Below, one piece after another: positions 21,524 to 27,285 of a DNA stretch of 64,000 nucleotides (positions are counted from its first letter, which is position 1; the number at the start of each line of letters is the position of its first letter). The stretch is from Isosphaeraceae bacterium EP7 (GTDB taxonomy: Bacteria > Planctomycetota > Planctomycetia > Isosphaerales > Isosphaeraceae), in NCBI GenBank assembly GCA_038400315.1, contig CP151667.1, positions 5,963,174-6,027,173 on the forward strand. Direction: 5' to 3'. Position numbers and translations under genes: made by a program. The notes under the pieces were generated by a model that did no database searches, was not told the origin of the DNA, and saw nothing but the letters and a program-made list of their open reading frames with translations.

Positions 21524-23098
21524 ATGTCAACCAAATACGCCACCGCCATCGTCGGCCTGGCCGCGCCAGGGGTCCTCGGGTTCTGTGCGACCGTCGTCGC
21601 CTGGGGCCAGGAACCCTCCGGAGCGCCCGCCGCGTCTCCGGCGGCACCCGCCGCCGCCCCGTCGTCCGCGGCCGCCCCGACTGAGGCGGTCGTCTTGCTG
21701 ACCAATGGCCTGGTCCATCGGGGAGTTCTCTCCGAGGATGACTCAGGTTACTCGCTCCGCGTCCGCGGCGGAACGCTCGCGTTCAGGCGTCGCGACGTCG
21801 AGCGCCACTTCCCCTCGATGCAGAAGCTTTATGAGTACAAGTCGAGCCTGGTCCCGCATGAGGACCCCGACGAGGTGATGAAGCTGGCGCAGTGGTGCCT
21901 CCATCAGGGGCTCGACGCCGAGGCGGGCGAGAATCTCGAGGCCGTGCTCGCCGTGGCCCCCGACCATTCCAAGGCCCTGGCCATGCTGACCAACCTGCGG
22001 TCCCAGGCCGCCGTCCGCAGTCGCAAGCAGGGCCAGGGCGCGGCGCCCGCTCCGCTCGACATGGACCTCAAGCGTACCGAGGCGCTGGTCCCCGGCGACG
22101 CGCCCGAGCCGATCAACCAGCAACAGATCCGCCGAGGTCTCCAGCGGATGGGCGTCACCGACGTCCCGGTCGTCCTCGACCTGCCGCCCGTGCAGGCCGT
22201 GCGCCAGGCCAGCGACTTCAACCAGTACGTGCACAAAGAGATGCAGCGACTCTGCGTCGGCTGCCACAACGAGAAGTACGCCGGGTCATTCCAGATGATC
22301 CAGGTGAAGCTGGGCCGAGACTATCGGAACCCGGAAATCAGCCGCCAGAACCTGGACGCGGCGATCTCGCTGGTGAATCCGGACAACCTGTCCCAGAGCC
22401 CCCTGCTGTCCAACACCCTGCTGCCGCACGGTCCCAACAAGAAGCCGATTTTGCGCGGGCCGAATGACCCGACCTACCGGCTGCTTTCCAGCTGGGTCAT
22501 GAACATGCAGCCCCACCGCACGGCCGACCCCCGCCTGGCAAGGGCCGGCGGCGGCTTCGCCGGCCGGGGCGAGGGAGTGACCCCGGCAACGGGCTCCGCC
22601 GGCGGCTTCGGGGCCTCTCGGTTCGACGACACCCCCGGCCTGCCCGATCCGGCCGCGCCGCCCCGTTCCGCCGTCGTCGACCCGTACGACGGCAAGGTGC
22701 CCGGCGTCCCGCTCCCGCCGCCCAAGGCGAGACTCGTGCCGAAGGACGTCAACTCGATGGTGCCCAACAGCTATAACGGCGCGAACCCGTACGCTCAGGG
22801 CCTGGACTTCCCCGGCAATCCCCTGATGGGCGGGGCTCCCGGCACGCCGAACACGCTGCCGGCCTTGCCCGACGCGCCCGCCCCCACACGTCCCAAGGCC
22901 AGGACCAATCCCGCTGCGGCCGAGCCCGCAGACATGCCCGACGCAGTGGCCGACGGCGTCCCGCTGCCGCTCGAAGGGATCTCCGACGCCCTGCCCATCA
23001 CCCCGCCATCCACCAAGCCGAGCATCGGCAAGAAGCCGGCCAAGAAGATCGACCCGGCCCTGTTGGATCGGATCCTCAAGAACCGGATGGCCAAGTAG
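21524..23098 (+). CDS. exported protein with a c-type heme motif and Pro-rich C-terminus
   Basis: A 524-residue protein. The first 28 residues form a signal peptide (ending AWG). An Ala/Pro-rich linker follows, then a beta-rich segment (AVVLLTNGLVHRGVLSEDDSGYSLRV) and a helical stretch that resembles a TPR unit (EVMKLAQWCLHQGLDAEAGENLEAVLAVAPDHSKALAML). A single CVGCH heme motif lies near residue 247 in a cytochrome-c-like context (KEMQRLCVGCHNEKYAG), with possible heme ligand Met residues downstream. The last 170 residues are rich in Pro, Ala and Gly and probably disordered. It looks like a planctomycete 'PSCyt'-type protein without the DUF1549 part. Function unknown; a redox or scaffold role at the outer face of the inner membrane is plausible. 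Confidence 0.75.
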   Translation: MSTKYATAIVGLAAPGVLGFCATVVAWGQEPSGAPAASPAAPAAAPSSAAAPTEAVVLLTNGLVHRGVLSEDDSGYSLRVRGGTLAFRRRDVERHFPSMQKLYEYKSSLVPHEDPDEVMKLAQWCLHQGLDAEAGENLEAVLAVAPDHSKALAMLTNLRSQAAVRSRKQGQGAAPAPLDMDLKRTEALVPGDAPEPINQQQIRRGLQRMGVTDVPVVLDLPPVQAVRQASDFNQYVHKEMQRLCVGCHNEKYAGSFQMIQVKLGRDYRNPEISRQNLDAAISLVNPDNLSQSPLLSNTLLPHGPNKKPILRGPNDPTYRLLSSWVMNMQPHRTADPRLARAGGGFAGRGEGVTPATGSAGGFGASRFDDTPGLPDPAAPPRSAVVDPYDGKVPGVPLPPPKARLVPKDVNSMVPNSYNGANPYAQGLDFPGNPLMGGAPGTPNTLPALPDAPAPTRPKARTNPAAAEPADMPDAVADGVPLPLEGISDALPITPPSTKPSIGKKPAKKIDPALLDRILKNRMAK

Positions 23099-25571: not shown

Positions 25572-26297
25572 ATGCCCACCCCTCCCCTCGAAGTGTACTT
25601 GCTCGGCCTGGTCGATTTCGACGACGCCCAACAGCTCCAGCGACGCCTTGCCTATGACCTCGGCGAGGCCGGCGGAGGGGCCCTGATCCTCTGCGAGCAC
25701 ACGCCGACGGTCAGCATCGGCCGCGCGGGCAGCCGCGGGCACCTGAGGGTCGACCCCAAGCAACTGCAAGCGTCGGGCATCGCCGTGCGATGGGTCAACC
25801 GCGGCGGTGGCTGCGTCCTCCACCTTCCGGGGCAGATCACCGGCTACTTCGTCTATCCGATGGCCCGCGCCGGCCTCGACGTTGGGTCGTACGTCGGGCA
25901 TCTGGAGCGGGCGATCGTCGCGACGCTCGCGGAGTTCAATCTGGCAGGCAGCCCCAGGCCCGAGGCGCCCGGGATCTTCCTGGGTCACTCACGGGTGGCT
26001 TCGATCGGCGTGGCCGTCAGCCGCTGGATTGCCTATCATGGATTTACGCTGAACGTGGGGGCGTATCTCGAGCCATTCGACGCGATCCTGGACGAGCCGG
26101 GGTGGGACGGATACTCCCTGCGGCAGACGTCGATCGAGTCGAGGCGGCAACGCCCGGCGCCCATGGCCCAGGTGCGAGAGTCCCTGATCCGCCAGGTCGA
26201 GACGTCCTTCGGCCTGGAGCGGCACCACCTGTACACCCACCATCCCCTGGTCCGCCGCAAGGTGGCATCGCATGTCTATGCCCAGAGCGCGGGTTGA
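25572..26297 (+). CDS. lipB: LipB-family octanoyltransferase homologue lacking catalytic Cys and Lys
   Basis: A 241-residue protein of the LipB family, which moves octanoyl groups from acyl carrier protein to lipoyl domains. The substrate-binding signature NRGGGCVLHLPGQITGYFVYPM-like segment is intact at 76-97 (with H84 in the LHLPGQ motif), and YHGFTLNV at 155-162 matches HGLALNV. However, the catalytic Lys of the K-x-A-S-I-G motif is Arg (R141 in HSRVASIG), and the catalytic Cys of I-x-P-C-G is gone: the segment reads ILDEPGWDG (172-180). The sequence was checked codon by codon. It overlaps lipA by 26 bases. Either this protein uses another mechanism, or octanoyl transfer is done by a different enzyme and LipB has become a binding protein. 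Confidence 0.85.
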   Translation: MPTPPLEVYLLGLVDFDDAQQLQRRLAYDLGEAGGGALILCEHTPTVSIGRAGSRGHLRVDPKQLQASGIAVRWVNRGGGCVLHLPGQITGYFVYPMARAGLDVGSYVGHLERAIVATLAEFNLAGSPRPEAPGIFLGHSRVASIGVAVSRWIAYHGFTLNVGAYLEPFDAILDEPGWDGYSLRQTSIESRRQRPAPMAQVRESLIRQVETSFGLERHHLYTHHPLVRRKVASHVYAQSAG

Positions 26298-27285
26298 CGC
26301 CCTCCCCATCCTGCCGATCGTGACCCCGGACGCACCGGCCGCAGCCGGCTGCGGGTCGGGCGGGCCGATCGCGGCGCAAGCCCCGGCCTTGACGGTGATC
26401 GACGCCCCGGCCGAGGCCCCTCGCAGGCGGCTCCCTTCGTGGCTGAAGCGGCCGATCCCCGAGTCGGGCGGCACCTACTTCACCAAGGATCTGGTCGGCG
26501 AGCTGGGCCTCGAGACGATCTGCGAGAGCGCCAAGTGCCCGAACCGTTCGGAGTGCTGGACCCGCCGCACGGCCACCTTCATGATTCTGGGCGAGACCTG
26601 CACCCGCCCCTGCGGCTTCTGCGCCGTGAAGCGAGGCCACCCCGAGGCGGTGGCCATCGACGAGCCCGCCCGCCTGGCCGAGGCCTGCGCCCGGCTTGGC
26701 CTCAAGCACGTCGTGATCACCAGCGTGACCCGCGATGACCTGCCCGACGGAGGAGCTGACCACTTCAGGCAGTGCGTCGAGGCCGTCCGCGCCCGCACGG
26801 GCGCCACGATCGAGGTCCTCACCCCCGACTTCGATGGCGACGAGCGGGCGATCGAGATCGTCCTCCAGGCTCGCCCAGAGGTCTTCAACCACAACCTGGA
26901 GACCGTCCCGAGGCTCCAGCAGTACGTCCGCCGCAAGAGCCAGTACGCCGTCAGCATGAAGGTGCTGGAGCACGCCAAGCGGATCGGCGGGCCCTTTGGC
27001 GTGCGGACCAAGAGCGGCCTGATGCTCGGCCTGGGCGAGACGACCGAAGAAGTCCTGGAGACGATGGCCGACCTGCGGGCCATCGACTGCGACTTCCTCA
27101 CGATCGGCCAGTATCTCCAGCCCTCGCTGAAGCATCTGCCGGTCGACCGCTACCTCCACCCCGACGAGTTCGACGAGCTTGGCCGCCTGGCCCGCGCGAT
27201 GGGCTTCGCCGAGGTTGCCAGCGGCCCGTTCGTCCGCTCCAGCTATCACGCCGACGAGATGGCCGCCTCAGCCCACACTCATTGA
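26272..27285 (+). CDS. lipA: lipoyl synthase
   Basis: A 337-residue radical SAM enzyme that inserts two sulfur atoms into octanoylated lipoyl domains. The auxiliary cluster Cys are C84, C89 and C95 (CESAKCPNRSEC); the radical SAM motif C110-x3-C114-x2-C117 reads CTRPCGFC; the C-terminal RSSYHA contains the Ser ligand. The first 50 residues are an Ala/Pro-rich extension. The gene starts inside lipB (26-base overlap), so the two are translationally coupled; an in-frame ATG at 26278 is an alternative. Confidence 0.96.
   Translation: MSMPRARVDALPILPIVTPDAPAAAGCGSGGPIAAQAPALTVIDAPAEAPRRRLPSWLKRPIPESGGTYFTKDLVGELGLETICESAKCPNRSECWTRRTATFMILGETCTRPCGFCAVKRGHPEAVAIDEPARLAEACARLGLKHVVITSVTRDDLPDGGADHFRQCVEAVRARTGATIEVLTPDFDGDERAIEIVLQARPEVFNHNLETVPRLQQYVRRKSQYAVSMKVLEHAKRIGGPFGVRTKSGLMLGLGETTEEVLETMADLRAIDCDFLTIGQYLQPSLKHLPVDRYLHPDEFDELGRLARAMGFAEVASGPFVRSSYHADEMAASAHTH

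Follow-up and report, generated by a model that had tools for sequence, protein, structure and literature searches.

What does a protein do that is built like the octanoyltransferase LipB, is encoded in overlap with the lipoyl synthase gene lipA and has lost both residues through which LipB acts? The question is raised by a gene at 25572–26297 on the forward strand of the window, the 64,000-nucleotide stretch of DNA analysed here. The gene encodes 241 amino acids and was described from its open reading frame, its Pfam and TIGR00214 matches and an AlphaFold model. PMC9307952 gives the catalytic Cys/Lys dyad of LipB as C169/K135 in Escherichia coli and C176/K142 in Mycobacterium tuberculosis. 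The initial annotation had read the gene as a LipB homologue without catalytic Cys and Lys, and had offered two explanations, a new catalytic arrangement or a binding or channelling role beside LipA.

E. coli LipB (b0630), taken from NC_000913, was used as the reference for the dyad positions. In an alignment with this protein and with relatives, E. coli K135 corresponds to Arg141 of the window protein (codon 25992–25994, forward strand) and C169 to Pro176 (codon 26097–26099, forward strand). The old Lys region reads HSRVASIG (residues 139–146, 25986–26009) and the old Cys loop reads ILDEPGWDG (residues 172–180, 26085–26111), as had been annotated. The whole protein contains only two Cys residues (41 and 81) and two Lys residues (63 and 230), so that a second Cys/Lys dyad is unavailable. 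It does not resemble LplA in these respects either: hhalign places Arg in the column of the Lys of the LplA GxKxSG motif, and the accessory domain of LplA is not visible in the model of this 241-residue protein.

Both sequence and fold identify the protein as a LipB homologue, which upholds the remainder of the original description. It matches the LplA/B catalytic domain (PF21948) in Pfam with 112 bits and passes the NCBI LipB equivalog TIGR00214 (97 bits against a cut-off of 83.55), while falling short of the thresholds of all four listed PRK LipB models. The AlphaFold model was calculated from an input of 73 window and locus sequences and has a pLDDT of 94.8, with low confidence in the final residues; no second domain is seen in it. 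The nearest fold in the PDB is Thermus thermophilus LipB (PDB entry 2qhs; Z 31.6, r.m.s.d. 1.6 over 209 residues), and M. tuberculosis LipB (1w66) gives a Z of 27.4. LplA and the lipoyltransferases rank under the LipB structures, with Z values of 21.6 for bovine lipoyltransferase (2e5a) and 18.6 for BH3822 (2p5i), which we take to be a LipL.

The substrate-pocket motifs of LipB (RGG, HxPGQ and HG..N) are all kept. The segments R77-G-G-G80 and H84-x-P-G-Q88 are encoded at 25800–25835 and HGFTLN (residues 156–161) at 26037–26054, both on the forward strand; the annotated motifs NRGG and LHLPGQ are found at residues 76–79 and 83–88. Across 73 aligned rows G50, R77, G79, G87 and G157 are invariant, and G78, together with Q23, C41, E42, H43, G80, H84, P86, Q88, Y92, N161 and R202 among others, is conserved in at least 90%. 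The differences from canonical LipB are the Arg and Pro in place of Lys and Cys, RGGG where canonical sequences usually have RGGD, and a C-terminal tail (residues 217–241, 26220–26294, forward strand). The tail carries the conserved His224, and its residues 224–225 have no counterpart in E. coli LipB.

Cys41 (codon 25692–25694, forward strand) is the only conserved residue that might be thought to replace the lost nucleophile. It is present in all 42 Isosphaeraceae homologues, in 110 of 116 non-canonical relatives and in five of 45 canonical LipB sequences of other classes. In a profile alignment (probability 86%) it falls, within an ungapped stretch, on W37 of E. coli LplA (residue 38 with the start Met), a residue at the substrate-pocket end, according to PMC12157495. 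Because it is aligned with this pocket-end Trp and not with the acyl-carbonyl site, Cys41 is unlikely to be a nucleophile. A relocated Cys/Lys pair was considered and rejected as unlikely from the alignments, since a conserved Lys is lacking and Cys41 is missing from six of the 116 relatives as well as lying at the pocket end. Between the two explanations originally offered, a binding or channelling partner fits better than a new catalytic arrangement.

The loss is not peculiar to the window. The collection used contains 45 genomes of Isosphaeraceae, the sole family of the window's order represented in it, and LipB-like homologues were found in 42 of them; a named example, from Paludisphaera soli (Isosphaeraceae, Isosphaerales, Planctomycetia), is 61% identical to the window protein. 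All 42 distinct homologues are without both catalytic residues, the Lys column being occupied by Arg in 41 and Gln in one, and the Cys column by Pro in 41 and Ala in one. A sequence error at 26080–26115, which the initial annotation had allowed for, is thereby excluded. At the level of the alignment, the exchange of Lys for Arg keeps the positive charge and is thus no plain loss.

In a sample of the class Planctomycetia (158 genomes), a LipB-like protein was matched in 121 genomes, 31 of which are Isosphaeraceae. Sequences were read from 76 of the 90 others, and just two have the canonical Lys and Cys: L166 (genome G359) and L167 (genome G347). The non-canonical sequences of the class, including those of Isosphaeraceae and leaving out L298 (7 amino acids), number 116. 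In every one of them the K135 column lacks Lys. The former active-site loop contains a Cys in 20 of them; in 14 of these 20 it belongs to an RCDG-like loop of one other family, and this RCDG Cys is one column off C169 in a smaller alignment and on C169 in the larger alignment used for this count. As a control, both residues were found in 45 of 45 LipB sequences from other classes of the phylum, a set drawn from 40 of the 217 other-class genomes with a match and made up mostly of the better matches and of two-copy genomes. In a tree of 96 rows, for which L167 was shortened to its first 240 residues, the 73 non-canonical rows lie on one side of a branch with support 79/44, recovered in 84% of bootstrap trees. 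The tree makes a single origin of the dyad loss likely; the modest branch support stops short of proof.

The RCDG-loop loci (L144, L150, L151, L153–L155, L157, L170, L301–L305 and L309) carry their Cys on the catalytic position or on the residue preceding it, and have Arg, Leu or Gln at the Lys position. Judged from these residues, this family possibly represents an intermediate or partly active state. More generally, the 20 sequences with a loop Cys mean that some relatives may keep partial chemistry, which weighs against treating every member as a purely non-catalytic partner. A single in-frame TGA was observed inside the protein match in genomes G006, G066, G121, G256, G400 and G412.

A gene that has lost its chemistry might simply be decaying. 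The reading that the LipB-like gene is a disappearing relic, or an artefact of sequencing, can draw on its absence from 37 of the 158 class genomes, which demonstrates that it can be lost. The same changes, however, recur in 42 distinct Isosphaeraceae homologues, and purifying selection acts on the gene. Over 33 Isosphaeraceae pairs with overlapping members, its dN/dS has a median of 0.13; the value for lipA, from these very pairs, is 0.09. The non-canonical clade also has conserved residues of its own. Among its 116 sequences S54 is kept in 112, C41 in 110, R202 in 110, G80 in 105, H224 in 102 and W74 in 99, and in canonical rows these columns are mostly filled by other residues or gaps; Pro225 occurs in 104 of the 116 and also in 15 of 48 canonical rows. 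We regard decay or artefact as very improbable. The pattern of conservation looks like that of a changed function.

Selection had previously been deduced from the overlap with lipA. The conclusion stands on the substitution rates; the overlap alone is no proof of it. The lipA gene lies at 26272–27285 on the forward strand (TIGR00510, 369 bits against an NCBIfam cut-off of 310), overlaps the LipB-like reading frame by 26 bases if it begins at the first ATG, and is followed by leuC and leuD. Linkage of the two genes extends over the class. Same-strand lipA is directly downstream in 102 of 107 non-canonical loci, where the first aligned LipA codon is a median of 9.5 bases away, and is downstream in eight of nine further loci. 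Two of the six exceptions, L049 and L113, are at contig edges; the other four (L149, L154, L163 and L307) have no lipA within 1.5–2 kb downstream and count against a partnership with LipA. In genome G347, which is without a LipM-like protein, a single open frame of 544 codons joins the canonical LipB to LipA (L167/L211, G347:C1:4942264-4943742). Elsewhere in the window, a 524-amino-acid open reading frame at 21524–23098 contains a haem-binding-like CVGCHN motif and has no Pfam match at E ≤ 0.001.

A search of the genome for LplA or LipM, as had been suggested, was productive. Beyond the LipB-like protein, the genome of the window encodes two proteins with the LplA/B domain, the LipM-like P0002 and the LplA-like P0003. 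The gene for P0002 adjoins gcvPB, and the protein contains the motif LCF...GHKLVGSAQ; the name LipM-like rests on these motifs and this linkage, as no curated LipM model matches P0002. According to PMC7253636, the active-site Cys of LipM sits on a different loop of the scaffold. Relatives of P0002 were found in 45 of 45 Isosphaeraceae genomes and, at E ≤ 0.001, in 156 of the 158 class genomes. Four of the latter (G347, G359, G372 and G419) have weak matches and no separate LipM-like protein in a domain search; they were removed, leaving about 152. Among the 58 LipM-like sequences read, a count from which the LplA-type protein L263 was excluded, the Cys is present in 58 and the Lys in 57. The other LplA/B-domain protein of G347 and G359, the two genomes with canonical LipB, is of LplA type only (381 or 386 codons).

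A LipM-like protein thus occurs in most genomes that have the LipB-like protein and, as a separate protein, probably performs the reaction that LipB lost. With it present, LipB could lose its chemistry. Three genomes (G349, G403 and G419) have a LipB-like protein and no LipM-like protein that could be found, which speaks against this pairing; their assemblies are in 220 to 340 contigs, so that loss of the LipM-like gene is not certain. In G403, rated 100% complete in 220 contigs, the non-canonical LipB-like protein (L174) is the sole LplA/B-domain protein found.

These data also bear on whether the LipB-like protein is still an octanoyltransferase, working by direct transfer without an acyl-enzyme or by new roles of Cys41 and Arg141. 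The nearly invariant pocket, the replacement of Lys by Arg in 41 of 42 Isosphaeraceae, the frequency of Cys41 and the situation in G403 would all suit such altered chemistry. The prevalence of LipM-like proteins in the class would not, nor would the gaps in Cys41 conservation and its alignment with the pocket end. In addition, an E. coli LipB mutant lacking the same two residues (K135A/C169A) is described in PMC9307952 as inactive and yet as binding octanoyl-ACP with a KD of 36 µM. We consider altered chemistry improbable.

The 37 class genomes without a LipB-like protein were searched for divergent copies. In 19 of them no hidden LipB-like gene was found near lipA among open reading frames of at least 60 codons within about 1.5 kb per side; two extra genomes were included in this neighbourhood search, and its only clear match, the canonical LipB of G347, came from one of them. 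When all 37 were searched with a profile, two weak matches resulted, both where P0003 also matches. Of the 20 genomes without the LipB-like protein that were searched for lipA, 19 have lipA, and G023 showed neither. LipA therefore does not need the LipB-like protein everywhere, and the 37 of 158 genomes without it speak against an essential role and against the idea of a general LipA partner. Dispensability in some genomes would suit a sensor of acyl-ACP or lipoyl groups that regulates LipA or the fatty-acid supply and is not itself an assembly step, as would the retained acyl pocket and the linkage to lipA. The 241-residue model, however, shows only one domain, and a sensor seems a slim prospect, a little less probable than altered chemistry.

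The main rival to a partner of LipA is an amidotransferase. Like LipL or LIPT1, the LipB-like protein could be a relay enzyme that moves the finished lipoyl or octanoyl group from GcvH to E2, here without a Cys thioester. To our knowledge LIPT1 has no catalytic Cys; the relay enzymes have the same scaffold as the LipB-like protein and a possible role downstream of a separate octanoyltransferase. PMC10332631 describes Bacillus subtilis LipM as specific for GcvH and dependent on the amidotransferase LipL, and also mentions genomes with LipM and LipA and without LipL, for which a broader LipM or unknown amidotransferases are proposed. A relay would have a target throughout the class, as E2 matches are over the cut-off in 158 of 158 genomes (in G337 weakly, at E 8.8e-4), and the substrate pocket it would use is kept. 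P0003 (L001:1441-2196, 251 amino acids), which has the ligase Lys motif and apparently no accessory domain, is by these features another candidate relay enzyme or half-ligase. It was matched in 133 of the 158 genomes; seven of these matches are weak (E 1e-11 to 1e-17), are to LplA-type proteins and were counted as present. The LipB-like protein and P0003 are both missing in two of 158 genomes, where about six would be expected (Fisher p = 0.069); this anticorrelation is weak, was counted by hand and ignores kinship. Further points against a relay are the want of a universal Cys and of a conserved Lys at the catalytic place, and the NCBIfam LipL models, none of which is matched by the window protein (P0001) at E ≤ 0.001. 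Genomes G320 and G363, with three and four E2 matches, respectively, have a LipM-like protein as their only LplA/B-domain protein, so that a LipM-like protein and LipA may suffice. A relay role is possible, and we hold it to be rather unlikely.

The explanation that we favour, at somewhat less than an even chance, is that the LipM-like protein transfers octanoyl and that the LipB-like protein is a non-catalytic, pocket-retaining partner of LipA or of lipoyl domains. Octanoyl would be taken from octanoyl-ACP by the gcvPB-adjacent LipM-like protein, as its conserved Cys and Lys suggest. The LipB-like protein, with the fold of LipB, would no longer form the octanoyl-thioester intermediate. It retains the pocket for the acyl chain or lipoyl-lysine and would be made together with LipA. 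Its most likely ligand, bound non-covalently, is the octanoyl- or lipoyl-carrying arm of GcvH or of the E2 lipoyl domains. The bound arm might then be presented to LipA, or the product held. The inactive E. coli double mutant, in which both catalytic residues are likewise gone, is a laboratory analogue; unlike this engineered protein, the natural one adds clade-specific conserved residues and coupling to lipA.

Extended to the class, and put more tentatively, this would make the protein a class-wide pseudo-octanoyltransferase. LipM would have taken over transfer, and LipB would have been retooled. Its new task would be to present acyl groups and lipoyl domains to LipA non-covalently, or else to serve as the missing relay enzyme that works without a Cys; Cys41, at the pocket floor, would possibly meet the sulfur-bearing lipoyl end. 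Among the open-access literature matches listed, searched through titles and the starts of abstracts, a dyad-less LipB is not described, which is no proof of absence.

For annotation the case is a warning, as the protein, having lost the very residues on which the reaction depends, is still named an octanoyltransferase by the equivalog TIGR00214. For the pathway, most genomes of the class sample combine a LipB homologue with a LipM-like protein, but the LipB there is without its dyad; given its linkage to lipA, it is a concrete candidate for an accessory or relay step that is missing. The relay reading, if true, would answer the open question of genomes with LipM and LipA and without LipL that is raised in PMC10332631. 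The findings suggest that one large planctomycete class has retained an old enzyme in the role of a helper or relay protein.
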